From a virus: 20,366 bases of DNA. The stretch is taken from positions 1 through 20,366 of IMG/VR virus record IMGVR_UViG_3300025889_001201. One strand, written 5' to 3'. The stretch's first letter is position 1; every line of letters begins with the position of its first letter. Below, piece after piece: positions 190 to 17,962 of the stretch. The translations under genes and the position numbers were made by a program. The notes under the pieces were generated by a model that worked only from the letters and a program-made list of their open reading frames with translations, had not been told where the DNA came from and did not search any database.

Positions 190-3100
190 TTACTCCACTA
201 CTTCAGATGGGGCCAGCAAGAACTCCTGCCCCTGCTCGCGTTCGACCCTACGCTCCATACGTCGCAGGCTGCCCGGGTCGAGGGCCTCCTGAATCTGATA
301 AAGGATCAGGTAATCCAGAACTATACGGGTATAGAACAAGTTCATAAACGGCGTGTTGGAGATCAGCATACGGAATGCCGAAGAGGCCACATCGTCCCCG
401 CGCATGGCTCGCTGCCGCAAATCATCAAGATCGCTGATAACGCCGAATGTCGGGCCAACCAGAGTGTCGATGATGTTTCTGCCGAACCTGTTGTTCTGCC
501 CCAACAAGAAGTCGCCGTAAATGCCAAGCGCACCACCTTGTAGCATGGCAGCAGTCCATGTCTGCGGCAACGTCGGATCTCGAGGCTCCTTGCCTTTGAT
601 CAAATCCTTGGCAACCATTGCGACGTATCCAAAGGCGGTCATCGCCAAAATCATCTGCGCGAGCCCCAACATATCGCCCTTGCCATACTTGATGTATTCG
701 CCGAGTGAGTTATAGCCGCGGCCATAAATCTCTCGACCAAATACTTGACGGGTAAGCGCAGTCGGGAAGCCCTTGAACTGAGCGATGTATCGAGCGATCT
801 CACCCCAGAATGTGCCGGGCTTGATGCCGCGAGTCCAGAAGTAGCGCGATCGCACATCAGGTTCGATAACAGCAGTCATGGCTTGATCAACGATGAAGTT
901 GCGCAAGCGATCGGACAAGTCTCGGCGAGCATTGGCAACCGCTGTCTCAGTCGTCGAGCGCCCGATCGTATTGAGATACGATAGTATCGCTTCTTGCGGC
1001 AATCTGCTGACTGCCTCCGGCACAACGTAGAACTTGCCTTTGCTATCAGATACAAACCCGCGGCGCAGCAGATCCCATTCTGGAGCTGTGATTCCGTATT
1101 GCTCAAACAATCGTTTTGCGCTCGCATCAAGCCCGTCAAAGCCGGTGTTACGCAAGTTGCCGAGCCAGTTAGCGGTGCCGAGCTCCATGCCTTCTCGCAA
1201 GGTGTCAGTCCACCAAGCCAGTCCGTTGAGACGGAAGAAGATTCGCATCAGGTCAGCAGACCCGGCAGACATGATGTCATCCGAGTCAAAGCGCATCGCG
1301 ACGCCGCCGATAATCCCCTCGGCTACGCTGTCGATCATGTTCAGAATTTGTTTCCGCTCGCCCTTGGCGCGCCCTTGGAGCAGATTGCCGATACCCTCGC
1401 CGATACCAGAGAGCAGGCCACCTCGGCCCTGATATCGAATTTGGCTAGCGTATACGGGAAGATCCGTGACCGCTGAGATCACAGCGCCGCCGAGCTTTGC
1501 CATCGATTGCACGACTCGGATGTTAGATCCAACTCGAGCACTAATCTGGCTGCCCGGCACATTGGCTCTGCCGTCCAACATCGTCAACAAATTAGTTGCT
1601 TCATCTTTGGAATCTGCAAAGTCAGCTCGAGCTTCTGGATCTCCACGCAAGGATGCTTCAATCTCAGCCATTGATGCCTTGAGCGTGTATTCCGGATTCG
1701 GGCCAAGAATGCGCATCATGCCGGCCTGCTGTGCAGCGCGACTCAAGTCGCCGAGAATGGCCTCGTTTAACTTACCGGAGCCGAACTTCTCAAGATAGTC
1801 AAACTCCGAATCGGCATCAAGAAAGTAGATGACGCGAGACTGTGACGCGCGACGGGCAAGTGAGCCCGGCGTCGTATACGCAGCAGCTTCCGCATCAACA
1901 GCAGACAAATGCCGACCGGCAGCCAGATCGTCGTAAACAATATCAAGGAACTCCTCGAGATTCTGACCCGGCTCCAGAGTGCGATCGACATCAAGCCGCT
2001 GCCGAACAAAAGCTTTCCACTCTTCTGCGCCAGCCGTGCGGATCTTGGTGAAGTCGTGCTGCTGCCGGGTGATGTATCCGGTCAGGTCACGAATCCATGC
2101 GCCGAATCGATTGCGAGTATTGCGAGCATCCTCGCGATACTTGTAAACAATCTTCGCAATCGTCACGGCCTCGGGGACAATCCCCTCGAGCCGCGGGTTT
2201 GGCCGGCCCATCTGATATAGCGCGCGAGCGACATCGCGGCCATAGGCGTTGCTCATGAAAGCCTCGCCGACGCCAGCCTGCTCAAGCTCTGCGAGCATTC
2301 CCTTTGTCCAGCGCGTGAAGTAGGTGCGCTGCCAATGGAACACAGAATCTTTCGACCCGAACCGAGCAAACGATGAGCCGCCGAGAACAGACAGGATTCC
2401 CTCTCGCGGGTTTTGCGCAAATTGCGAAATGACCCGGCCAACGATCTTGGTTCTAGCAGCCAGCGTCAGCGCGGCGTTACGAGCAGCAATTGTGGCATCG
2501 AGCTTGACGTTGTTAGCAACAGCATTGGCTGCGCGAATAGCATCGCTCTGGAGCGAGTCAGCAGTCTCGTCTGCGGTGAACTGAGCTTGCGCTTTCTTCA
2601 ATCGTGAGCGAACCGTGCGGTTTTCGGTCTTGAGTTGCTCAAGTAATTGGTCGATCTCATATGCGCCGAGCTGATTGTTCGTCGCGGCCTGCATTGCAGC
2701 CCGAGCAGCGTCGTCATTGCCGATGCGCTCTGCCGCGGCACGAACCGCGCGAGCGTAGATATCGGCTCGCTGTATAGCATCGTTGAACGGGCGCAGTTCC
2801 GCATTGGATTCAGGTGCGTTGTACACGCCACCCTCTTCGGCAACCGAGCGCATACGCTTGGCATCCTTAAGAGAGACTTTGCGCAGATAGTCAAACGCAG
2901 GGCTGGTGTCTGGCGATACTCGAGCGCGACGATCCTCTGGGAACGGCGATCGCATATCGGGATTAAACGCTGTGACGTATCGGCCATCAGGAGAAATAAA
3001 TACGCGATCAACAACGAAGTCTTGAATCGCGTTAAGCGTCTCCATGTTTCTGCCGATAGCAAATAAAAACTGTCCTTGAGCCTCAAGAGCAGTTCGCAGC

Positions 3101-6100
3101 AATGCCACTCTTGCCGCAGCAGATCCTTTTCGAAGTTGCTCACTAGGCAATACAGCAAGATTGCGAACAACCAGTTTCGCGTTGGTCACAGCGATAACAA
3201 CAGCGTCCTCGTCAACCTCGATTTGCTTGGCAATATTGACAAGCCTTTCGGGAGTGGTCAGCGGCTGACCGCCAATATCCATTAGCTTCTTTGGATCGGA
3301 CTGCCCAAAGTCCTTGGAAATTGTTTGCGCGTTGCCATCTGCATCGATCACCGTGTACTGATTCGTATCAACGATGACATGACCTTTTGGATCAACCCCC
3401 ATTTTCGCAATAAACTTCGACACACTACGAGTGAAGTCGATGTCTGCTGTGCTCGCATTTGGATTGGTGCTTGGGTGGTTGTGCAGCATATACACACCCT
3501 TTGCACCCAAGAAGATAGCGCGCTGCACTAGTTCACCCAAGAATTGTTTGCCTTCGCCAACAAAGCCAACAGCAGACCCCGGCAAGCGAGATGTCAGGCC
3601 AGCTTGCGCAATGATGTTGTCGTTACGGTCAACGAAGAAATACCGCAGCGTCTCAAAACGAGGATCGCGGTAAACTTGCGCTAGCACAGCAAGGTCGGCG
3701 TGATCGGCTACTTTTTGCCCAACAAGCGAGACTCTTTGACGCTCTGCATACTGATCAGAGAGGGAGAGGGCGAGTATAGAGTCGGCTGATCGTAAGTCCT
3801 CCACGGCCCTAACCGCTTGCCGTTGGGCAGCAACTGCCCCCGGGCCAGCCTGCGTTCGAACAGGGCCTTCGGCGAGGTAACGTTGGAGTCCTTCATTTAC
3901 GGTTAAGCCTCGAGAAACCTCGAGATCTCCTCGCCCTGTTCGTCTTGCGAGTTGCTCGGCCTGTAGCTCTTCATCAACTGCGCGAGTGACTCCGGAGATT
4001 GCGTCTCTGGAGATTCCTCGCTGCTCGGCAAGTTTGGCTGCGGCGTTTGCGTAGTCTGGGGCTGCGTCGTCTGCATATCCTGCTTCGACTTCTGCATCTG
4101 ATGCTCCTGCTGCGTCATATAGTCGCTTTTCCGGATACCAAAGTAAAGCCTGCAAGTCGGCCATTGTCAAATCTGGATTGTCCTTTTGGAGTCGCTCCAG
4201 AACAGCATTAAATACCTTGCGAATACGGCCTCTTTCAGGCGGCCCATCAGGTATTTCTTTTTGGCCGTCAAGATACTTTGACAAGGCGTTACCAGTCTTG
4301 CGGATCTCATCCCCGAGACCAACCCTTGGCTTGTCTTTTTTGGGTTTTCCGACAATTTCATTTAACGCTTTTTCATCAAAGCCTGCGCCAATCGCATTTA
4401 ATGCGGTGCGGTTTTGCTTGTTCGTGCTTGCTTTAGCAATAGCAAACGCAAGTTCGTCAGGGCGGGCAACAGCAACGCGCTTGCCAAGAATGCGCTCGAG
4501 CTCTTTGCGCTGCGCGCTGTCCAGCAAACGGACAAGGCTGGTTAGGGATTTGCGCTTGGCGCGAACCTGCGCCGGGTTTTCCTCAATCAGAGTGCCAGTC
4601 CAGCGGCCCCAAGTGCGAACCAGCCACCGATCCATTGTAAGCTGCTCAAAATTGCCATACAGATTTGAGAAGAATCCGTTGCCAATTTTTGGCCCGAGGA
4701 TGGCAGAGCCATATACCTCGGTTGACATATTCTCGCCACCAACTTTAAGCCCAGAGAATGCGGTGATGTTTTTCACCGTATCCTTGTTTCGCATAAATTT
4801 CTCAAGAGCATCGAATCCATGCTGCTTGAGCATTACGTTATAAAGGCGCAATCCGTCATCTATTTGCGAAGCTGCCGTGCCGATTCCGACATTGACAGGC
4901 ATTTCTCCTGTCTTTCTCCATGACTCGTATGCCTTCATCGCCAGCTCAAAGTTTTTGTTTACCTTGAGTCCGTTAGACGTAACAGCCAGCGCCCAAGTAA
5001 AGGCGAGACGATCCTCACGGCTAGACAAAATCTCCGGATGGATTAACGAGATAATTCGCAGAGCCTTGGTAACTTTCTCGTTATACCAACCGATCGCGTT
5101 CGAGTTATCGCGTAAGGCAATGCGAGCTTCGCGCAAGGCCATGCGAATAAGGTATCGCTCAACATCAGGCGTGAACTCTGTAAGATCGACACCAGCTTCT
5201 CGAGCAGCGGCGTTAACCGCATCTTGGATGTCTTTCTTGAACTCGCGATTGTTTGCGAACTCTCGACCTTTAGCGCGCTCAAAAGCAGCCTCGACGTTCG
5301 ACACATTGTCGACGGTAGTCGGGATTTCGCCGTACTCGGCAGCCTCTTCCTGCACTAGTCGATTCGCGCGGAACTGGCTTTCGGTGTTGACCGCGGCAAC
5401 AGCCTCGTCAGCGGCGGCAACGGCCTCATCAAGTGCCTGTGCAGCGGCATCAAGCGCAGGAACTGCTCGCGGCTCTGGGATCTCTGCGGCAGCTTCAAAG
5501 TCCACCATTGCAGCCTGATCTGGGCGAGCGTTCTCAATGGCCGCGTTGCGAGCAGAGGTGAGCGGATCTACCGGGCTCTTCTGTCGCTGCGACGGATCAA
5601 GGCCGACGATCGGCTCGACGTTGATTTGGCGGCTATCCATCGCCTGCGCAACACCGGTAGACAGAGCGGCACGGCGGGTTTCCGGCAGCACTTGCTCTGC
5701 GATATTGCGAGCACTTCCCGGCATGGTTTCCGCGTCGATTGCGCGTAGGATCTCCATATCCTCTGCTGACAGCGGCTTGTTGGCCTCTATTTTATCCAGC
5801 AAGCGACGAGCTTCTTGTGCTCGAGCAAGACGCAGCACCTCGCGCTGTGCGCGCTCAGACCGAGCCTTAGCGTCGATCTGCAAGTCAATCGATGAATCCT
5901 CTTCGGCGCGCAATTCGGCCTCGGCTTGTTTGCGAGCGGTGCGTTGCCGCAATTTACGCACAGCCTTAACGTCAGCTATTTCTGGCCCATAGACCGCAAC
6001 ATCCTCATCTCGCAGACGAGCTTCTATTTGGGCGATGCGAGCATCCAACGGCAACGTAGATCCGGCCTGATCGCCAACACGAGCAAGCGCAGCTTCAGCA

Positions 6101-7002
6101 TCGTCCAGTTCACGCAGCAACTGCTGGCGGTTAATGGCAGGCGCATCAGCAGCTCGAGCGATCAGCTCCTCGCGCGTTCTGGCGATGATTACATCGTCTG
6201 GATCAAGCGCCCTCGGAGTCGGCTCAAGCTCGCCAATCGGAGGCAGGCTCTGATCGGCCTCGATAGCCTGACGCACGGCAGCATCAACAGGACGCTCCAC
6301 AGGCAGCGGAGGAAGCCCCCGAGAACGCCTATAAGCCTCAGAGACAGCACCGCCTATGCTGTGCAGGCCGCCACCCAAAGCAGTGCCAAATGCGATATTA
6401 AGCAGCGAGTCTGCCGCGTCGTAGTCAGCCTGCTCTAGCCGAGCCGTAGATAAAATGATCGGCTCAATTACAGCAGCACCGACCGCACCTTCAATACCGC
6501 CAACGCCAGCACGAACCGCAGTTCTTCCGGCAAACGTTGTTCTAGCGCGCAACAAAGCAGAGTATCGAGCAGAACCAACAACTGGAATAAAGCCAGAAAC
6601 GATGTTAACAGGATCGAAAAACGATACGCCAAGCCCAACCGCTAATCGAGCAGCACCACGACCAAAGCCGCCGGGACTGGTAGCAAACTTTTCGTTTCTT
6701 GCGTTTTCAATTCGTTTTCGCTGAATCAGAATATCAAGTGCTTCTTGTGTAATGCCCTGATCTGGAACAGTTAGTTGCGTGTCAAGTCGCGCATCAGCCA
6801 GTTGCGCTCTAGCCGCTTCAGCAGAAATAGGATTTCCAATTCGATACGCTTCACGCAAGTTTCTTCCGCGCTGGATTGCTTGAATAGGATTAAATTCAAA
6901 CGTTTCTCGAGCGGTCTCAATTAGCTCCTCGCCAAGAGAAAGCTCTCGAGTTTCAAGTTGCGGCTCGCGACGACGAACATCTAGAAGACCTTCAAAGCTC
7001 AT
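190..7002 (-). CDS. Giant internal virion / polyvalent protein with RadC-like JAB domain (T7 gp16 position)
   Basis: This 2270-residue protein sits where T7 has gene 16 (1318 aa), the DNA-ejection protein that crosses the host envelope. Residues about 35-225 contain FNPIQAIQRGRN, a SFFDPVN motif and hydrophobic stretches at about 118-143, 164-184 and 198-222, typical of phage internal virion proteins. Residues about 230-560 are charged, Ala-rich and helical. Residues about 620-1000 form a globular region with GPKIGNGFFSNLYGNF, TMDRW (M790) and LQALLWYPEKRLYD, a pattern I associate with phage polyvalent proteins. Residues about 1085-1225 are a RadC-type JAB domain: E1157, then HNHPSTNPNASTAD at 1174-1187, matching the RadC metal motif spacing (H1174, H1176, S1184, D1187). 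Residues about 1900-2270 carry several hydrophobic helices and end in a conserved NLFYTRIVLDYL..LDPGSLRRMERR tail. I see no lytic transglycosylase motif. Start: ATG overlaps the upstream stop as ATGA. An ejected multidomain protein is inferred; the enzymatic role is unknown. Confidence 0.85.
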   Translation of the reverse strand: MSFEGLLDVRRREPQLETRELSLGEELIETARETFEFNPIQAIQRGRNLREAYRIGNPISAEAARAQLADARLDTQLTVPDQGITQEALDILIQRKRIENARNEKFATSPGGFGRGAARLAVGLGVSFFDPVNIVSGFIPVVGSARYSALLRARTTFAGRTAVRAGVGGIEGAVGAAVIEPIILSTARLEQADYDAADSLLNIAFGTALGGGLHSIGGAVSEAYRRSRGLPPLPVERPVDAAVRQAIEADQSLPPIGELEPTPRALDPDDVIIARTREELIARAADAPAINRQQLLRELDDAEAALARVGDQAGSTLPLDARIAQIEARLRDEDVAVYGPEIADVKAVRKLRQRTARKQAEAELRAEEDSSIDLQIDAKARSERAQREVLRLARAQEARRLLDKIEANKPLSAEDMEILRAIDAETMPGSARNIAEQVLPETRRAALSTGVAQAMDSRQINVEPIVGLDPSQRQKSPVDPLTSARNAAIENARPDQAAMVDFEAAAEIPEPRAVPALDAAAQALDEAVAAADEAVAAVNTESQFRANRLVQEEAAEYGEIPTTVDNVSNVEAAFERAKGREFANNREFKKDIQDAVNAAAREAGVDLTEFTPDVERYLIRMALREARIALRDNSNAIGWYNEKVTKALRIISLIHPEILSSREDRLAFTWALAVTSNGLKVNKNFELAMKAYESWRKTGEMPVNVGIGTAASQIDDGLRLYNVMLKQHGFDALEKFMRNKDTVKNITAFSGLKVGGENMSTEVYGSAILGPKIGNGFFSNLYGNFEQLTMDRWLVRTWGRWTGTLIEENPAQVRAKRKSLTSLVRLLDSAQRKELERILGKRVAVARPDELAFAIAKASTNKQNRTALNAIGAGFDEKALNEIVGKPKKDKPRVGLGDEIRKTGNALSKYLDGQKEIPDGPPERGRIRKVFNAVLERLQKDNPDLTMADLQALLWYPEKRLYDAAGASDAEVEAGYADDAAPDYANAAAKLAEQRGISRDAISGVTRAVDEELQAEQLARRTGRGDLEVSRGLTVNEGLQRYLAEGPVRTQAGPGAVAAQRQAVRAVEDLRSADSILALSLSDQYAERQRVSLVGQKVADHADLAVLAQVYRDPRFETLRYFFVDRNDNIIAQAGLTSRLPGSAVGFVGEGKQFLGELVQRAIFLGAKGVYMLHNHPSTNPNASTADIDFTRSVSKFIAKMGVDPKGHVIVDTNQYTVIDADGNAQTISKDFGQSDPKKLMDIGGQPLTTPERLVNIAKQIEVDEDAVVIAVTNAKLVVRNLAVLPSEQLRKGSAAARVALLRTALEAQGQFLFAIGRNMETLNAIQDFVVDRVFISPDGRYVTAFNPDMRSPFPEDRRARVSPDTSPAFDYLRKVSLKDAKRMRSVAEEGGVYNAPESNAELRPFNDAIQRADIYARAVRAAAERIGNDDAARAAMQAATNNQLGAYEIDQLLEQLKTENRTVRSRLKKAQAQFTADETADSLQSDAIRAANAVANNVKLDATIAARNAALTLAARTKIVGRVISQFAQNPREGILSVLGGSSFARFGSKDSVFHWQRTYFTRWTKGMLAELEQAGVGEAFMSNAYGRDVARALYQMGRPNPRLEGIVPEAVTIAKIVYKYREDARNTRNRFGAWIRDLTGYITRQQHDFTKIRTAGAEEWKAFVRQRLDVDRTLEPGQNLEEFLDIVYDDLAAGRHLSAVDAEAAAYTTPGSLARRASQSRVIYFLDADSEFDYLEKFGSGKLNEAILGDLSRAAQQAGMMRILGPNPEYTLKASMAEIEASLRGDPEARADFADSKDEATNLLTMLDGRANVPGSQISARVGSNIRVVQSMAKLGGAVISAVTDLPVYASQIRYQGRGGLLSGIGEGIGNLLQGRAKGERKQILNMIDSVAEGIIGGVAMRFDSDDIMSAGSADLMRIFFRLNGLAWWTDTLREGMELGTANWLGNLRNTGFDGLDASAKRLFEQYGITAPEWDLLRRGFVSDSKGKFYVVPEAVSRLPQEAILSYLNTIGRSTTETAVANARRDLSDRLRNFIVDQAMTAVIEPDVRSRYFWTRGIKPGTFWGEIARYIAQFKGFPTALTRQVFGREIYGRGYNSLGEYIKYGKGDMLGLAQMILAMTAFGYVAMVAKDLIKGKEPRDPTLPQTWTAAMLQGGALGIYGDFLLGQNNRFGRNIIDTLVGPTFGVISDLDDLRQRAMRGDDVASSAFRMLISNTPFMNLFYTRIVLDYLILYQIQEALDPGSLRRMERRVEREQGQEFLLAPSEVVE
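5393..5431 (-). repeat. Tandem 21-bp repeat encoding the heptad DEAVAAA
   Basis: Two near-identical 18-base stretches, gcggcaacRgcctcRtca, lie 21 bp apart inside the giant ejection gene and encode the heptad DEAVAAA followed by DEAVAAV. A third degenerate copy (QALDEAVA context) borders it. The heptad period and Ala/Glu content fit a helical coiled-coil or linker before the globular domains. It is a small in-frame repeat, not a mobile or regulatory element. Confidence 0.6.
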
Positions 7003-9104
7003 TCTGCAAACCCACGCGCAGTTTTGGAAGATTCAAGAAGACGCTCTGCCCTTCGTTCTCCAGCATAACCCTTTGTTGCAGACCTATTCTTAATATCTTG
7101 CCAAGAATAAGTAATATAAGGCGGTTCCTTGCCCGGTCTTTCAACAGGCTGACCATCTTTCATCAAGATAACAACTTGGTCATTCTGCATTGTCTGCCAA
7201 TATGATCCGCGAACAACCCCAAAGCCAAGCTCTTTAGTTGCCTCGTTCTTAAAATCACGAAGCCCTGTGCGAAGTTCTGAGTTACTAACAGTAATAGGCT
7301 TGCCATCAAGAAACTTCGGAACTCTAATAGTTGCGTCATCAACTTCTGCAAGATTGTAACGCTCTCCAACAACTTCTTGATACGCCTGCTCAACAGCAGA
7401 ATTAACTCCTTTACCGGCCCGAATGTAATCAACAGCAAGCCGATAAATTGCGTCTTGCATAATGATCTTGGTTTCGCTGTCGCCAGCTTGACCATAAAAA
7501 GACGCTTCAATTTGCTGGAAAGCATCAGAGATGGAATCTTTAACGTCTTTTGGAGATGTTCCTGATGGAAGCAATTTATTAAAATCATCTTCCTTAATCT
7601 GAGACAACTCAATAAGCCGATTGGCCGGCCCCTCTCTCATGCCAGCGCCGATAGCAACAGCCGATCCGGGAAGCTCTTTAATTAACTGCGGAAAAATCTT
7701 TTTCCAAGCCTTGTCTCCCCACCGATTTTTTTCTTGCAAGATTACGGCAGAACCAATAACAGCTCCGTCTCGCGGGTCTCTGCTATAGGTTCTGTTAATA
7801 ATGTCATCGGCAATGGCCTTCGGAAGAATTGATCTATTCTCAATTCCGATTCTTCTTGCCTCGCTGTCGATCATGTTGACGAACCGCTCCGAGGCTGCCC
7901 TCTGCTCTTGCGGCGTTTGTGCAGCACCGATTGCATTATAAGCCTGACTAACGGCTGGGTTCCTTTGCATGATGTAGCCGCCCGGATCATCTTCTTGCGC
8001 CTTTACCATTCTGGCGTAAGACTCGGACACCATCTCATATCGCTTCAGGTCGCCGGCAGCGCCTTTTTGCTGGGTTGGGCGCATAGCCTCAATCTTAGCT
8101 GCGGCCTCTGATCTAGGCATGGTCGACAAAGAAATAATTGTCGCACCAGCATCATACATCTTGCGATAGTCTTCGTATTTATCAGCAATTCCAGCGGCGG
8201 CAAATTGCGCACGACTAAATGGCTTTTCGGGAATGATGCCAACGCTGATGGCAGCAAGCTGATCGTCAATATCGGAAGATAACTTATCCCTTGCTTCTGC
8301 TTCTCGCGCTCTGCGCTCCTGCTCCATGATCGCAATGCGGCGCTCTGCTGCCGCCTTGACGTTATCAACAGAGTCAGCATCCAAGGCATCAAGATAGGCA
8401 AAGCCGGTCTGACCGGGTGGCTTTTCAAGAGCTTTTAAGACTTGCTGCGGATTCTTATTAGCAGCAGCAATGCCAGCATCTTGCGCAAGAATGGCGCGGT
8501 TCTGATCGTAAAATTTAGCGGAAGCCTGCTTGTCTTCAATTCTAGATGCAGATAACTTTAAACTCTCAGAAGCTTCTGAGAATTTTGAAGGATCTACCTG
8601 AACAAGTCTGCGAGAAGCGTTGAAGGTCTCGCTTTCAGTTCTGACTGTTTTTGCAACAGAGCTGCGAGCTTGAAACACAGAAGAATTCTTCTGCACATCA
8701 AGGCCCTGAATTGATGCTCTTTCTGTGAACCAAGCGCGAGCCTTATCTGACTTGATATTTGGCAGATACTCATTGACCAATTCTTGATATCGAGCGGTTG
8801 CTTTATCTGAAAACCCGTCAAAGTCGTCAGCGTCCTCTGCTTCTTTTTGCAGTCGCTGCTCTTCTTCCATCCACCGACTTGCTAATTCAACAGACTTAGA
8901 TGAAGCATCAATCGCCGCCTCATCTTCACGGCGTTTCTCAATCTCCAGATTGCGACGCTCAATCATCTGGCCGGCAGCCACAGCGCCTCGAGCAATGGCC
9001 TCACCGGCTTGACCTAAACCAGACTGGATGCGCCCGAGCCCTCCGACATCGGGAGCAATGACGCGCGGCGTCGTCTGCTGTCGATAGAACTCGAGCTTTG
9101 CCAT
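6999..9104 (-). CDS. Internal virion protein (T7 gp15-like position)
   Basis: The 701-aa product is close in length to T7 gp15 (747 aa) and lies between the gp14-like and gp16-like genes. The N-terminus (MAKLEFYRQQTTPRVIAPDV, then Gly/Ala-rich GLGQAGEAIARGAVAAGQMI) is followed by a long charged helical stretch with many E/K/R/Q residues. Most of the protein reads as helical and coiled-coil, with no enzyme motif I can recognise. In T7 the equivalent protein joins gp16 to form the ejection tube in the periplasm; the same role is inferred from position. It starts 2 nt after the gp14-like stop and its TGA overlaps the start of the giant gene (ATGA at 7002-6999), which suggests coupled synthesis of partner proteins. 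The coding DNA from about 7000 to 8900 is visibly AT-richer than most of the window. Confidence 0.8.
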   Translation of the reverse strand: MAKLEFYRQQTTPRVIAPDVGGLGRIQSGLGQAGEAIARGAVAAGQMIERRNLEIEKRREDEAAIDASSKSVELASRWMEEEQRLQKEAEDADDFDGFSDKATARYQELVNEYLPNIKSDKARAWFTERASIQGLDVQKNSSVFQARSSVAKTVRTESETFNASRRLVQVDPSKFSEASESLKLSASRIEDKQASAKFYDQNRAILAQDAGIAAANKNPQQVLKALEKPPGQTGFAYLDALDADSVDNVKAAAERRIAIMEQERRAREAEARDKLSSDIDDQLAAISVGIIPEKPFSRAQFAAAGIADKYEDYRKMYDAGATIISLSTMPRSEAAAKIEAMRPTQQKGAAGDLKRYEMVSESYARMVKAQEDDPGGYIMQRNPAVSQAYNAIGAAQTPQEQRAASERFVNMIDSEARRIGIENRSILPKAIADDIINRTYSRDPRDGAVIGSAVILQEKNRWGDKAWKKIFPQLIKELPGSAVAIGAGMREGPANRLIELSQIKEDDFNKLLPSGTSPKDVKDSISDAFQQIEASFYGQAGDSETKIIMQDAIYRLAVDYIRAGKGVNSAVEQAYQEVVGERYNLAEVDDATIRVPKFLDGKPITVSNSELRTGLRDFKNEATKELGFGVVRGSYWQTMQNDQVVILMKDGQPVERPGKEPPYITYSWQDIKNRSATKGYAGERRAERLLESSKTARGFAE

Positions 9105-9106
9105 GA

Positions 9107-9649
9107 TTACCTACCTACGTTCCGAAGCATACGCGGGCCAGTCACATAAACTCGCGGCTTCACTTTTCTGCTAGAGATTTTGACTTCTTGCAGATCATTA
9201 ATTGTCGGCTTAGTCGGCATCTTGCCGCCAGCGGCAGAAAATGCCATCAGAGCATTAGTGCCAGCAGAAAGAATTGCCGGCCCCCATAGCGGCTTTGCGG
9301 CACGAGTAGCGCCGGCCTCAAACATCAGCCCGCGTCGGCGACCCTCGCCTTCGTATCGGATATTGAGCGCATCCAGCTCGGCAGCGGTTGCAGCCTGCGA
9401 GTAGACATCAGCAAAGGATGTTGACTCTAGCAGTCCCAACTGCGCACCGGCAGCGCGAGTCTCACCGAATGCCTCACGAGCCTGCCTACGCTGAGTTTCT
9501 TCAGCGGCTCCAGCTTCCAGAGATGCAGCGCGAGCCTGCTCCTCTAACCCTCTAGCTTGTGCTTCGCCGACTTTGCGAGCCTGCGCTGTTTCAGCGATCG
9601 TGCTGACAGCAGAGGCGGCAGCGGCGATAAATGGTATGAACTGCGCCAT
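9107..9649 (-). CDS. Internal virion protein (T7 gp14-like position)
   Basis: The 180-aa protein matches T7 gp14 (196 aa) in length, order and character. It opens with an Ala-rich hydrophobic segment (FIPFIAAAASAVSTIAETAQ), continues with a long Ala/Glu/Gln/Arg helix (about residues 25-110), and has a second Ala/Gly-rich hydrophobic segment (WGPAILSAGTNALMAFSAAGG, about 120-145) before a basic C-terminus. This matches small phage ejection proteins that insert into the outer membrane at the start of DNA delivery; that role is inferred. The ATG overlaps the preceding TAA by one base (TAATG), and a GAGG sits about 8 nt upstream. Confidence 0.75.
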   Translation of the reverse strand: MAQFIPFIAAAASAVSTIAETAQARKVGEAQARGLEEQARAASLEAGAAEETQRRQAREAFGETRAAGAQLGLLESTSFADVYSQAATAAELDALNIRYEGEGRRRGLMFEAGATRAAKPLWGPAILSAGTNALMAFSAAGGKMPTKPTINDLQEVKISSRKVKPRVYVTGPRMLRNVGR

Positions 9650-10074
9650 TACTGAATCCTCGAATACATCGCCATATCTTGACCGCTCGTCCCAAACGAA
9701 CGCATCAAGCCTTCAAACTCAAACCGCAGCATCTTTGCCCATCGATGCCCCTGCGGGAAACGAGCATCCACATACGCCTCAATCCGGCGATACGGGCGAG
9801 TGTTTAGGTAGTCGTCGACAATTCGCGTGAGGCCAACCATGTGCGGCCCTGCGTCTTTTGCAAGCCAAGCCCATGCTGCATATCGGTTCGCCCACATCTC
9901 TGCCACGCCTGCGCACATGACGGGCTTCTCGCCAGCCAGTACGGTGTAGGCGGGGCCGGCTTCCACAAGCTGCTCGCAGTAATCGTCGTCGAATACGAGC
10001 GGAGCCATGACTTGTTGCGCATCTTGCAGCACCATCGCTCGCAGATATTTAGCGTTGAACGAAACGACTTCCAT
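9649..10074 (-). CDS. GNAT-like phage protein (T7 gp13-like position)
   Basis: The 141-aa product is almost the size of T7 gp13 (138 aa) and occupies the same place, between tail tubular protein B and the gp14-like protein. The layout looks like a small GNAT fold: an N-terminal DAQQVMAPLVFDD helix, a VLAGEKPVMCAGVAEMW strand-turn region, WAWLAKDAG, and a C-terminal RRIEAYVDARFPQGHRWAKM strand-helix with GLMRSFG. Phage proteins of this type are often labelled acetyltransferases. I do not see a clean acetyl-CoA loop (R/Q-x-x-G-x-G/A), so a structural or assembly role is as likely as catalysis. Start and stop both use one-base TAATG overlaps with the neighbours, and GGAGG lies 4 nt before the ATG. 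Confidence 0.75.
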   Translation of the reverse strand: MEVVSFNAKYLRAMVLQDAQQVMAPLVFDDDYCEQLVEAGPAYTVLAGEKPVMCAGVAEMWANRYAAWAWLAKDAGPHMVGLTRIVDDYLNTRPYRRIEAYVDARFPQGHRWAKMLRFEFEGLMRSFGTSGQDMAMYSRIQ

Positions 10075-12944
10075 TAGTCCTCCGTCCTCAATCTCGGGTA
10101 CATCGCAACCACCGTCAGCGGCAGCGGTTGGTCAGCCAGCACCCAGATCCGGCCATCGGTTTCGTATCCACCCGGATACGGGAACTTGTCGGTGTCGCCG
10201 GTCAAGATTGGTGGCGTCTCATCCATGTAGTCTGACAGCGATCGATACAGGATGTAATCCGTGTTCGTCGCATCCGGCCCGACCTTGCCACCGAGACTTG
10301 CATAGAGGCGCATCACGATCTGATGGTATCGCTTCGTCTTACCTTGCGCCGTGCCATCCGTAGCACCCGCATCAATCCTTTGAGTGGCAAGCGTAGACGT
10401 ATACGGCAGGCCGATCTGCGCTCGAGCAGCAGCCACTGGCAGCGTGATAGATCCATTGGACACAATCAGGTTTTCAACTTCTGCGCCGTCAGCCAGAGCA
10501 GAAACAGTCTGCCCCTCAAGATGCCAGAGACCCTTGATAACCGTAGAAGTCATGCGCCAGCCATTGGCCGGGATCTCATTCTCAGTTTGGAACGGAGAAA
10601 GAATCGTGCAACGAACTTCACCCTCATTGACATAGCTTGTGATTAACGCTCGAGAGGTGCGCCATTGCTCGATAGATTCATCGAAATAGCGAACTCGGAT
10701 TTCTCGGCCAACATCTCCAGCAACAAACACATCATCATTCATTGCGATAAATTCGTTGGCTTCAGTCAGCAAGAAATCATCAGCTTCTGTTGTCAATTCA
10801 AACAGCGATGTCACCGTGAACGGGACATTCGTAGCACCGCGAACAATCGCGCCAGAACCCGGCAACAATGCTTCTGCTACAGCGCCATCAAATTCAAGAG
10901 AGGTATCAAGATAAACCGCTCCCTCAATATCATCATTCTGCTCAAAGCCTTCAGCAAAATACTCAACGTATTTGCGAGTGTTTGCGCCGGAAACAGACGT
11001 TTCAGACAATATCTTGAATCCATCTTCAAGCAGCAAAAACGAGCCATCTTCAAGCAGTTGATAGTTGGCTATAGATGCAGACGTAATCAATCGCTCAACA
11101 ATCACCCAAACGTCGTTGACACTAGCATCTGGGCTAGTAATGACTTGCGCTGACTTGACCTTGGAATTTGTTCCCGCAATCGGATGACGGTGCCAGCCAT
11201 AGACGTTCTGCTCTCGATCATAGGTCATGCCAAGCAGGCGACCATTAGAGAGCACCGTCCAGATGATGTTATCCGGCTCCTTCTGGTACGCCATTTCGAC
11301 AATGCCGGACTGCGTGATCTCGGGATACAGCACGTTCATGTCGCGCGGAACCCAAGAGTCAGATTGAATGTCGAACCGCAACTCGAGAATGCGCCGGCCA
11401 CCGATGCGCACAAACAGCACAGAATCTTCGACCAGCACCGGCTCCAGCTCTCGCGAACCTTCAGCCGACTGGATCTCATACTTGACGTTTTCTGGGCCGA
11501 GCACTTGGTTCGGCGTGATCTCTTGCACGGCAACTTCGGAGCCTGCCGTACCAACGAGCAGCACATCCGATGCCGTCATCCAGCGGATCTTGTCGACCGT
11601 GCCAACCGAGAGCGTCAGCGAGATAGCGTTATCAGCCAAGATCTCACCGAGCGTATCGGGCGACATCGATAAATAGTCACCGGCTACCGACGCATAGATT
11701 TGCTGGTTGCCCGACCACCACAAACGATCGCGCCAGAAAGCGACCTTGTACGGGAACGCAGCGCCTGTCGCCTCACCCCATGCGCCGATCCGATAACGGC
11801 AATCGTCACCAGCAACGACCTCGGCAGGAGCAATGCCCGGGCCGATAATGTCGACGGTCACGTTTTGCGCGTCCGTAATCGCCGTCACCTTGACGATGAC
11901 GTAACCGGGATGCAGATATTCCCAAGTCACCGCACCGTCAGACTCGGTGCCTTCTTCGTGGATAGGGCGCACAGAGCCCGTTGTAGCGGAGTTCTGGGCT
12001 TCGTAATATTTGCCATCAGACTTGCGCAGATTGGTCGCTGTGACCGCCTTATTCGTTTCCCAAGGAGGTGTCGTGATGTTGACCGGCTCCAGCCGGAGCA
12101 GCATCCCAACGTGCTCGTTCTCAAATATGTTTGTCGTACAGGCAAGCGAGACGCCAGTACCAGATGATGCGCCGAGCGTGAAATTCTTGTAGTCGATTGG
12201 CTCGACTTGGAACGGGCCATCGGTCGGAGCGTAAGTCGCGAATGCCCAGCTCGTGTTACCACTACGGGTCAACGTGCGCGGCGCATAACCCTCGCATCCG
12301 ATATAGAGCACATCACCAGACTGGACGATAGAAAGAGCGCAGCCGCCCTCTGCGTTCGTTAAATCGGCCTCGGTGTACGGACTCGCAATCTCATAGACTT
12401 TTTGCAGATCGCCGTTGTAAACGTATGTGCCATAGTTAGTCGTGTCAATGGCATTGCCAAACCAGTCTTTCAGAGAAAAAGTATTTGCGCCGGTATTAAC
12501 GCTCGAAACCTGTACATATCGGCCATTGAGCTCGGTCATGCCCTCGACGCCGCTCACAAGGAACCAGTCGCCGTTAGCAGGATCGGTGCCGGTGTACGTC
12601 AATATGCCCGGGTTGGCTTTTGTGATATCAGTGATATCAAGTGTGTCACCGAGTACCACACCGCGATCGGTGAAGAAACGAACGTACTGATCGCCGAACT
12701 CGAGCACATAGGCTTGATCGAACGAAAACTCAAATCGCTTGAGATACGAAACTTTGTCCTGATACTTGGTCGGCAAAACGAACCGAGTACCCGGCATTCG
12801 CTTGGCCGGCCCCTGCACCGTTGGAACAAAACGCTCCATCTTGTAGCAAGAGCTCGAGTATTTCTCGAAATCGACGCGGCCAGATAGGAGTGGGCCGACC
12901 TCGCCGCCGTTGAAATTCGAGATCGCAGGCGAAACCTTTGCCAT
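10074..12944 (-). CDS. Tail tubular protein B / tail nozzle (T7 gp12-like)
   Basis: The N-terminus SPAISNFNGGEVGPLLSGRV, followed by KYSSSCYKMERFVPTVQGPA and a KRMPGTRFV motif, is the hallmark start of podoviral tail tubular protein B, which builds the nozzle at the tail tip and holds the ejection channel closed until infection. Further family-like features are repeated beta-propeller-type strands (YEIASPYTEADL, VLYIGCEG, PYKVAFWRDRLWWSGN about residue 405) and a C-terminal FPYPGGYETDGRIWV with PLPLTVVAMYP. At 956 aa it is longer than T7 gp12 (794 aa). Part of the excess is a region at about residues 600-750 with two blocks of acidic octapeptide repeats encoded by AT-richer DNA. It starts 3 nt after the tail tubular A stop and ends in a TAATG overlap with the gp13-like gene. 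Confidence 0.92.
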   Translation of the reverse strand: MAKVSPAISNFNGGEVGPLLSGRVDFEKYSSSCYKMERFVPTVQGPAKRMPGTRFVLPTKYQDKVSYLKRFEFSFDQAYVLEFGDQYVRFFTDRGVVLGDTLDITDITKANPGILTYTGTDPANGDWFLVSGVEGMTELNGRYVQVSSVNTGANTFSLKDWFGNAIDTTNYGTYVYNGDLQKVYEIASPYTEADLTNAEGGCALSIVQSGDVLYIGCEGYAPRTLTRSGNTSWAFATYAPTDGPFQVEPIDYKNFTLGASSGTGVSLACTTNIFENEHVGMLLRLEPVNITTPPWETNKAVTATNLRKSDGKYYEAQNSATTGSVRPIHEEGTESDGAVTWEYLHPGYVIVKVTAITDAQNVTVDIIGPGIAPAEVVAGDDCRYRIGAWGEATGAAFPYKVAFWRDRLWWSGNQQIYASVAGDYLSMSPDTLGEILADNAISLTLSVGTVDKIRWMTASDVLLVGTAGSEVAVQEITPNQVLGPENVKYEIQSAEGSRELEPVLVEDSVLFVRIGGRRILELRFDIQSDSWVPRDMNVLYPEITQSGIVEMAYQKEPDNIIWTVLSNGRLLGMTYDREQNVYGWHRHPIAGTNSKVKSAQVITSPDASVNDVWVIVERLITSASIANYQLLEDGSFLLLEDGFKILSETSVSGANTRKYVEYFAEGFEQNDDIEGAVYLDTSLEFDGAVAEALLPGSGAIVRGATNVPFTVTSLFELTTEADDFLLTEANEFIAMNDDVFVAGDVGREIRVRYFDESIEQWRTSRALITSYVNEGEVRCTILSPFQTENEIPANGWRMTSTVIKGLWHLEGQTVSALADGAEVENLIVSNGSITLPVAAARAQIGLPYTSTLATQRIDAGATDGTAQGKTKRYHQIVMRLYASLGGKVGPDATNTDYILYRSLSDYMDETPPILTGDTDKFPYPGGYETDGRIWVLADQPLPLTVVAMYPRLRTED
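11020..11057 (-). repeat. Direct repeat encoding LLEDG octapeptides in the nozzle gene
   Basis: The 14-base word ctgcttgaagatgg (minus strand) occurs twice, at 11057-11044 and 11033-11020, 24 bp apart. It encodes QLLEDGSF then LLLEDGFK (residues about 629-645) in an 8-residue period. A second protein-level block at residues 717-738 reads LTTEADDF, LLTEANEF, IAMNDDVF in the same period. The repeats are in frame and look like short beta-hairpin or beta-helix units added to the nozzle protein. Confidence 0.7.
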
Positions 12945-16623: not shown

Positions 16624-16916
16624 CAATCACCCATCAGTTGTTTGGCGTTGTGAGCGACCACAAACGCATAGAGCACATTCAGCGCCACCCATCCTAGAAC
16701 CGGCATGGAATTCAGCGACGCAATGAAAACCATAATCAGCATTGATCGAGATAGCACCAGTCCCTCGACGACGCCGATCTTCTCAAACAGCTTGCGCAAA
16801 ACTGGATTCATCTCTCGACCGCCGCGACGCAGAATCTCATGCGTCAGGATTCCATCTGCCACCACAAGACAGCAGAGGAACGACAGCAGAATCAGGCTCA
16901 TCGGTTCCGCAACCAT
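16623..16916 (-). CDS. Small membrane protein, 97 aa, DUF5658-like
   Basis: Three hydrophobic segments are visible: about 5-20 (PMSLILLSFLCCLVVA), 50-68 (VLSRSMLIMVFIASL) and 72-88 (PVLGWVALNVLYAFVVA). Between the first two lies DGILTHEILRRGGREMNPVL, resembling the D...T...L..GG.E.NP motif of DUF5658-type membrane proteins. I chose the ATG at 16916 because GGAG lies 8 nt upstream. An ATG at 16901 makes an ATGA overlap with the preceding stop and would give 92 aa. The frame is open further upstream, but that part is hydrophilic and lies within the preceding gene. It could be an inner-membrane protein helping lysis or superinfection exclusion; neither is shown by sequence. Confidence 0.7.
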   Translation of the reverse strand: MVAEPMSLILLSFLCCLVVADGILTHEILRRGGREMNPVLRKLFEKIGVVEGLVLSRSMLIMVFIASLNSMPVLGWVALNVLYAFVVAHNAKQLMGD

Positions 16917-17962
16917 GTCAGATACTCCGCGCCCTCCTCTGGCTCCCACCAAACCTTGACCATATCTGGATGCGTCGGTGGCAGCAGCGGATTGATCGTT
17001 GTCAGCGCGCAAGGAGAGAATGCGTTATCGCGAAAGCCCTTTTCTTTTGCGTATCGATCATAAACCTTATAGCTCGCTACCTTCAGCAAATGCATCGTGA
17101 TCCCGTTGATGGGGTCTTTGAGCACCGAGTAGGCGCTCTCGTGCTTATGGCCTGCGACGTAGATGTGATCTCGAGTGCCGAGCATCGCGGCTTTCATCGG
17201 GCCGTGAGCCGGATTCCACACCGACGAGCCTGCGTGATCGTGGCGAGCATTCACACGCACCTCTGCGCCATTCGGAAACTTCAAGGCGATGCGGGCCTCG
17301 CTGGATTTGTAGTTTGAGACTTGCTGCTTTGCGATCCATTTGAGCGGATCTCCTGCTCCAGACCACAGATCGTGATTCCCGGCTAGCATATAAAGCCAGC
17401 GACAACGATCAACAAACCATTCTGCTAATCGCCAAGCCTGCGCAGCAGATGTTGCTTGTTCACCGTAAAGCTTTGCTAAACGGCCAACCCAATTGTTCAG
17501 GCTATCCCCGACATTGCAGGCGAACAGTCCCTCAACCTTGCGACAGAGCTCGGTGTGACGCTCGAGCGCCTCGATATCGGTGCCGTCATCATCAACGTGC
17601 GGATCGCCAAAATGCAGCAGCCCAATCGGCCCCGGAATCTTGATGCGAATCGGGATGAGCTTGCTCGCTTCCTCATGCTCGCGCTTGTGTGCAAACTTGC
17701 GCTTGCGCTGCTCGATCAACTCTTCGATAGATACGTCGTCGTCCGGTATCGGAGTGAACTCAAACGCTTCGTGATTCGGTGTTTGCTTGCCCGGCTGGTA
17801 GGTTGAGTCCGGTACAACAATACCGTTCGCTCTCATTCGTTTTAGTCGGTACAACAGGGTGCGCTCATTCATCCCAAGCTCTGATGCCGCATTGGAACGA
17901 ATGCCCCTGTACTTCTGTAGCGTCGCAATGATTTGATCATCAGTCGCCTTTGCAGAAACCAC
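16898..17962 (-). CDS. Helix-turn-helix plus calcineurin-like metallophosphoesterase fusion
   Basis: The 354-aa protein joins two modules. Residues about 6-50 form a Fis-type helix-turn-helix (DDQIIATLQKYRG, NAASELGMNERTLLYRLKRM). Residues about 112-275 hold the full metallophosphoesterase motif set: D120-x-H122 in LLHFGDPHVD, G152-D153, GNHD at 195-198, HDH at 241-243 and GHKH at 271-274. Such enzymes use two metals to cut phosphodiester or phosphate ester bonds. With a DNA-binding module attached, a nuclease acting on DNA is plausible but inferred. The start is a GTG at 17962, supported by AGAGGTGAT just upstream; the ATG four bases earlier is out of frame. It lies between lysis and head genes, an odd place for a nucleic-acid enzyme unless it helps packaging or genome processing. 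Confidence 0.88.
   Translation of the reverse strand: MVSAKATDDQIIATLQKYRGIRSNAASELGMNERTLLYRLKRMRANGIVVPDSTYQPGKQTPNHEAFEFTPIPDDDVSIEELIEQRKRKFAHKREHEEASKLIPIRIKIPGPIGLLHFGDPHVDDDGTDIEALERHTELCRKVEGLFACNVGDSLNNWVGRLAKLYGEQATSAAQAWRLAEWFVDRCRWLYMLAGNHDLWSGAGDPLKWIAKQQVSNYKSSEARIALKFPNGAEVRVNARHDHAGSSVWNPAHGPMKAAMLGTRDHIYVAGHKHESAYSVLKDPINGITMHLLKVASYKVYDRYAKEKGFRDNAFSPCALTTINPLLPPTHPDMVKVWWEPEEGAEYLTWLRNR

Follow-up and report, generated by a model that had tools for sequence, protein, structure and literature searches.

The stretch of DNA analysed here (the window, a virus contig of 20,366 bases known from sequence alone) codes for a 2270-aa protein that we interpret as an ejection-protein backbone built around a swappable slot. 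The cargo in this slot would be made up of nucleic-acid- or nucleotide-processing domains delivered to the cytoplasm early in infection, a reading to which we assign a probability of about 0.5. Its two halves differ in firmness: sequence comparison gives good support to the architecture, a backbone with an exchangeable cargo slot, while the chemistry of the cargo is something that we infer. A preliminary description of this DNA had already pointed to a JAB domain in the middle of the protein; the two backbone modules (phrog_3003 and phrog_684), a 457-aa helical domain and a degenerate second JAB at aa 1240 to 1352 were absent from it (Table 1).

Gene neighbourhood and ejection backbone

The gene is a single intact open reading frame on the minus strand, with its ATG at position 7002 and its stop at position 190, and the plus-strand frame over the same interval is full of stops. 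The preliminary description had the frame and its length right and gave no strand. It had also assigned the gene to the position of T7 gene 16, which agrees with the order found on the same strand: portal, lysis genes, scaffold-position gene, capsid, tail tube A, tail tube B, gp13-like gene, gp14-like gene, gp15-position gene and, at the end, the 2270-aa ORF (the names tail tube A and B come from position and size). This order fits a T7-like ejection cassette. The gene at the gp15 position, which codes for 701 aa, gave no family match in either Pfam or PHROGs. As for the size of the protein, described earlier as nearly twice the T7 length, it is indeed longer, but the measured factor is 1.7, T7 gp16 having 1318 aa (PMC8954989).

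Some other genes deserve mention. Between the lysis genes and the scaffold-position gene, the product of a gene at positions 16898 to 17962 (minus strand) joins a Fis-type HTH at its N terminus (PF02954, 5.6e-8) to a calcineurin-like phosphoesterase (phrog_7339, DNA repair exonuclease). The tail tube B protein (10074 to 12944, minus strand) has a sub-threshold match to E1_FCCH (PF16190, 3.3e-6). In Vibrio phage 1.182.O, the gene preceding the gp14-position gene is annotated as an acyl-CoA N-acyltransferase (compare the gp13-position gene of the window, 9649 to 10074).

Two PHROGs families make up the backbone of the 2270-aa protein, phrog_3003 covering aa 21 to 549 (3e-44) and phrog_684 covering aa 1436 to 2268 (1e-173). 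These N and C modules are two adjacent genes in Pseudomonas phage Ab31 (579 and 858 aa) and in Vibrio phage 1.182.O (about 566 and 825 aa), and they are likewise adjacent, cargo-free genes in all 19 further genomes examined. In the window protein and its relatives, they are fused around approximately 880 aa of cargo. With T7 gp16, the window protein shares its place after the gp13-, gp14- and gp15-position genes and a layout in which hydrophobic stretches close to the two termini flank a long central part. However, apart from the difference in length, sequence profiles of the backbone matched neither the T7 gp16 chains nor any other solved ejection protein or structure in the PDB set, and the agreement is one of position and topology only. 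No lytic transglycosylase domain was detected in the window protein by Pfam.

Table 1. Features of the 2270-aa protein and of the genes next to it (positions in the window)
Feature	Position	Strand	Evidence
Whole 2270-aa polyvalent ejection protein (putative)	190..7002	-	same length class intact in relatives
N-terminal ejection module, aa 1-549	5356..7002	-	phrog_3003
Hydrophobic segments, aa 119-220, candidate membrane-inserting region	6343..6648	-	hydropathy scan
Cargo domain 1, aa 560-1016, all-helical, HhH-GPD-glycosylase-like (tentative)	3955..5325	-	relatives, AF2 model, fold search, motif
HhH-GPD-like motif, aa 770-800, GPKIGNGFFSNLYGNFEQLTMDRWLVRTWGR	4603..4695	-	K772 and D791 invariant in 39/39
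Helical linker, aa 1036-1088, conserved with the JAB module	3739..3897	-	AF2 model; retained in L114 and L115
Cargo domain 2, RadC-type JAB, aa 1092-1230	3313..3729	-	Pfam, alignment, AF2 model
E1117, invariant JAMM/RadC glutamate	3652..3654	-	62/62 relatives
H1174-N-H1176, metal ligands	3475..3483	-	62/62 relatives
S1184 ... D1187	3442..3453	-	S in 61/62, D in 62/62 relatives
Cargo domain 3, second JAB in degenerate form, aa 1240-1352, lacks HxH and E	2947..3285	-	profile comparison, secondary structure
C-terminal ejection module, aa 1436-2268	199..2697	-	phrog_684, virion structural protein family
Hydrophobic segment, aa 2109-2137, candidate membrane segment	592..678	-	hydropathy scan
701-aa gene, T7 gp15 position	6999..9104	-	stop overlaps the ATG of the 2270-aa ORF; named by position alone
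gp14-like internal virion protein	9107..9649	-	phrog_418
gp13-like internal virion protein	9649..10074	-	phrog_4177, weak phrog_308

An exchangeable cargo slot

A scan with the helical (mid) domain showed that the order of backbone and cargo of the window protein is common to 14 contigs, 11 of which hold a complete ORF of 2277 to 2341 codons. Eleven other complete fused ORFs, of 1851 to 2914 aa, have different cargo at the same place between the N and C modules. Pfam was run on eight of the latter and found ddrB-ParB in five, ART-PolyVal in five and PBECR5 in one; seven of the eight have one or more of these domains, and nothing clear was found in the remaining one (L239). There are also intermediate arrangements in which the JAB and the helical linker are kept while the mid domain is either absent (locus L114) or replaced by GP88 ahead of the JAB (locus L115). 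Considering that ddrB-ParB, ART, PBECR5 or GP88 are found in the same slot of relatives with the same backbone, the slot is exchangeable, and the variation among the fused ORFs and these two loci shows that the gain, loss and exchange of cargo domains do not depend on the delivery backbone. In L115, the GP88 domain (PF17338; positions 700 to 2010 of the locus, approximately aa 234 to 670 of its ORF) comes with a cysteine-rich stretch directly before the RadC JAB. In the fused N and C proteins of loci L230 to L245, a recurring order places ddrB-ParB behind the N module and ART-PolyVal closer to the C module.

These data support the classification of the 2270-aa protein as a phage-type polyvalent protein on an ejection-protein backbone, in line with the preliminary description, which had likened it to the polyvalent proteins. 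Like those described by Iyer, Burroughs, Anand, de Souza and Aravind in 2017 (PMC5512222), it is very large, has multiple domains and is encoded among virion genes, in this case those of the portal, capsid, tail tube and internal virion proteins. The effector-type domains that it carries between its two backbone modules are several: a RadC JAB, a degenerate JAB and the 457-aa domain. It is unlike them in having RadC as its sole Pfam domain, the other cargo domain lying outside Pfam. Named polyvalent domains (LPD, ART, ddrB-ParB, MPTase, PBECR) are a frequent mark of these proteins that stands outside the published definition; Pfam found none besides RadC in the window protein, and same-backbone relatives have ddrB-ParB, ART-PolyVal and PBECR5.

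The RadC-type JAB domain and its degenerate copy

Sequence and structural model together argue strongly that cargo domain 2 is a genuine RadC-type JAB. The Pfam RadC family (PF04002) matched it at 1.5e-11, with 44.7 bits against a curated cutoff of 22.1, and the profile match to chromosomal RadC proteins reached 98.3% (1.6e-14). The AF2 model of the region (pLDDT 85.4) has a JAB fold, and its best structural match is Chlorobium RadC, 2qlc (Z 13.9 over 121 residues, 2.4 A; Foldseek 2e-7). Between the window and those relatives for which dS could be estimated, dN/dS was 0.06 to 0.16, with synonymous sites near saturation in distant pairs. The domain is both conserved and under purifying selection, and therefore the Pfam match is not a product of chance.

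In an alignment of 62 relatives (20 to 51% identical to the window JAB), the residues R1112, E1117, H1174, N1175, H1176, P1177, D1187 and H1208 are invariant. The RadC-type domain and the residues H1174, H1176, S1184 and D1187 had been recognized in the preliminary description, and their conservation bears this out. The catalytic glutamate is another matter. It had been placed at E1157, a position occupied by Glu in only 10 of the 62 relatives and ruled out by this lack of conservation; the invariant Glu is E1117, located 57 residues ahead of H1174 and aligned with the HEVF Glu of chromosomal RadC proteins. The domain thus has in common with the RadC family its fold, the E/HxH/S..D set and a conserved His in the strand that follows the JAB motif. 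It differs in being embedded in a giant protein, in being followed by a degenerate JAB and in the spacing from E to HxH, which is longer than in chromosomal RadC.

The first and second JAB (JAB1 and JAB2) were related to each other by profile comparison (probability 94%, E 9e-8). The same tandem is found in short proteins of approximately 370 aa on Nitrosomonas conjugative plasmids, the best plasmid relative of the module being WP_107787995.1, which shares both JAB1 and JAB2 with the window protein but is free-standing and has only 368 aa. In a quick tree of uncertain rooting, the Nitrosomonas plasmid clade nests within the giant proteins of virus contigs. On one of these conjugative plasmids (L010, positions 5889 to 9912), a polyvalent gene with ArdC-N, MPTase and DUF5710 adjoins a free-standing JAB1-JAB2 gene, and JAB genes like this one recur in many Nitrosomonas genomes.

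A scan for the JAB detected 70 loci in virus contigs and 44 in bacterial genomes, and a repeat scan for close relatives returned the same contigs. Most of the viral loci lie within giant ORFs (1500 to 4700 aa) with unrelated backbones. According to Pfam, one of these proteins combines SLT, ddrB-ParB, RadC, ART and LPD38 (L126), another PBECR5, ddrB-ParB and RadC (L118), and a third LPD5, LPD1 and RadC (L129). Dozens of giant phage proteins contain a RadC JAB whose metal site is intact. The 2017 survey stated that RadC occurs only in the polyvalent proteins of conjugative elements, yet it mentions prophages elsewhere in the text (PMC5512222); the phage-type examples found here go beyond the conjugative-element-only statement.

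The helical domain and its tentative resemblance to DNA glycosylases

Giant polyvalent proteins from other podoviruses contain the 457-aa helical domain at 47 to 59% identity, and in two of these proteins LPD22 and ART-PolyVal were identified as well. At least 453 stretches in virus contigs encode the domain. No Pfam family fits it. DUF7178 gave a weak match in 11 of 39 members (best E 0.02), and no DUF7178 members were found in the 143 genomes searched or in the controls. Purifying selection acts on this domain as well (dN/dS 0.07 to 0.11, window against relatives where dS was estimable, with distant pairs near synonymous saturation). Among the records with this domain, L012 and L013 code for giant proteins of 2792 and 3125 aa that combine the helical domain with LPD22 and ART-PolyVal; their annotation reads "crystallin beta/gamma" or hypothetical. 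The crystallin label, present on relatives from two Manatee Spring records, was unsupported in the one scanned, where Pfam identified LPD22 and ART instead. Limnohabitans phage DC33 (39 kb), with tailed-phage-like genes, is filed in its record under Inoviridae.

We tentatively suggest that this domain resembles an HhH-GPD DNA glycosylase with an Ogg1/Nth-like K772...D791 motif. The resemblance was noted from the motif, ahead of any fold search: K772 and D791 are 19 residues apart and invariant. The Lys-Asp spacing of Ogg1 is also 19. In 2.95 million aa, the motif G.K[TVI][AG]x14-16Dx4Rx3R, a pattern written post hoc from both families, matched only the helical domain and endonuclease III. The AF2 model is all-helical (pLDDT 84.4), and a fold search in which 912 chains were aligned placed the human MutY homologue first (Z 7.2, 199 residues, 5.0 A) and a 3-methyladenine glycosylase (AlkA-like) second (Z 5.8, 178 residues), the third row falling to Z 3.6. 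For a helical model, Z scores of 7.2 and 5.8 with an rmsd of 5 A are middling. Foldseek against the PDB found nothing significant, only unspecific helical matches, and hhalign found no match to HhH-GPD (PF00730) proteins (probability 0.3%). Considering the lack of an HhH-GPD profile match and of Foldseek significance, the middling Z scores and the post hoc pattern, we call the domain glycosylase-like and not a glycosylase. In summary, its tentative likeness to Nth, MutY, Ogg1 and AlkA lies in the similarity of the all-helical fold, the spacing of the Lys and the Asp, and the Arg pattern after the Asp, whereas it is considerably larger than these enzymes and has no profile-level match to them.

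Probable delivery and possible function

The 2270-aa protein probably enters the bacterium by ejection, together with the DNA of the virus. Judging from the position of the gene, the virion structural family of its C module and the biology of T7 gp16, it would be packaged and then ejected ahead of the DNA. In T7 gp16, the segment flanked by the two membrane regions comes to lie in the cytoplasm of the host (PMC8954989); by analogy, the cargo located between the two hydrophobic regions would reach the cytoplasm at the point of DNA entry. Once there, it would act early in infection, with nucleic acid or nucleotides as its target. With a Lys and an Asp that recall those of bifunctional DNA glycosylases, the HhH-GPD-like domain would recognize or excise a base. 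The intermediate produced in this way, or a related substrate, would be processed by the metal-dependent RadC JAB, which has an inactive JAB as its partner. As a result, the incoming phage genome might be protected, or host DNA or a defence signal might be damaged. We know of no established biochemical activity or agreed function for RadC, a very widespread bacterial domain, and therefore its substrate here is a guess. A bolder and more doubtful proposal is that the ejection machine of podoviruses serves to carry exchangeable cargo, this lineage injecting an HhH-GPD-like base-excision module (glycosylase/lyase) and a tandem RadC JAB as a DNA-processing complex that waits at the entry site for the phage genome.

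The preliminary description had suggested that the JAB may be an ejected metal-dependent effector, either an isopeptidase or nuclease-like. An isopeptidase would remove host Ubl modifiers and thereby disarm Ubl-conjugation defences (type II CBASS with Cap3, Bub/Bil-like operons), or it would free Ubl from phage proteins. It is well established that CBASS employs Ubl conjugation against phages (PMC10097602), no residue of the E/HxH/S..D set is missing, the tandem of an active and a degenerate JAB recalls MPN+/MPN- pairs, and the JAB model can be aligned with JAMM1 bound to SAMP2 (Z 8.6), AMSH (8.4), BubCD (8.4) and Cap3 (7.3) as well. However, RadC 2qlc is far closer than the best of these JAMM-type structures, the RadC clade has been argued to lack the groove for the ubiquitin tail and to be probably nucleic-acid-processing (Iyer et al. 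2017; PMC5512222), and the cargo partner of the JAB resembles a DNA enzyme and not a Ubl enzyme. The isopeptidase reading is thus not supported as it was stated, and we consider it unlikely.

The cargo domains might also be non-catalytic, serving as a scaffold or DNA-binding mass in the ejectosome and retaining their folds by chance. The large variation in slot size that is tolerated and the clear degeneration of JAB2 are in keeping with this, but the metal-site residues of JAB1 and the pair K772/D791 are invariant over divergent sequences (identities of 20 to 51% in the JAB set and down to 47% in the helical set), as expected of active sites, which makes such a passive role rather improbable. 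We give slightly less credence to a processing protease that, like MPTase, would cut the polyprotein and release the ejected parts as separate units. Polyvalent proteins often carry an MPTase for such cutting (PMC5512222), and Pfam finds no MPTase in the window protein or in five giant JAB proteins (L115, L118, L126, L129 and L134). Nevertheless, the short plasmid JAB proteins of approximately 370 aa have nothing to cut in cis, and the same backbone is found with ddrB-ParB or ART cargo and neither JAB nor MPTase by Pfam; therefore, processing is not generally needed. Finally, since the virus is known only as a sequenced contig, one could imagine a protein that is not ejected and acts late inside the producing cell, for example in genome packaging or maturation, but this is very improbable given that the gene ends a gp13/gp14/gp15-like cassette and overlaps the gene upstream, and that its backbone families are annotated as internal virion or virion structural proteins.

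Implications for phage biology

The delivery class, polyvalent proteins and the presence of RadC within polyvalent proteins are already known. Delivery by ejection proteins is well studied, but most of what is known of their role as interchangeable enzyme carriers comes from computational studies of polyvalent proteins. To our knowledge, no virion-delivered RadC or HhH-GPD-type glycosylase was previously known. In the literature searched, we found no description of a RadC JAB combined with glycosylase-like cargo, nor of the helical cargo domain, the JAB1-JAB2 tandem or one ejection backbone with interchangeable cargo. For RadC or a glycosylase in ejected phage proteins, the search retrieved the 2017 survey only; its coverage of subscription papers was incomplete, and priority is unproven.

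If the proposed reading of the 2270-aa protein is true, it would represent the first virion-delivered RadC or HhH-GPD-type glycosylase, and RadC would be placed in a defined step of early infection. The helical domain is widely encoded in virus contigs and yet has no Pfam family. The occurrence of RadC with an intact metal site in giant phage proteins, some of them with ART, ddrB-ParB, SLT and LPD38, provides a setting in which to seek the activity of RadC. In addition, a single backbone can be traced through its cargo-free state as two genes and its fused forms, in which the same slot holds several types of cargo, and hence the delivery of cargo becomes testable by swapping.
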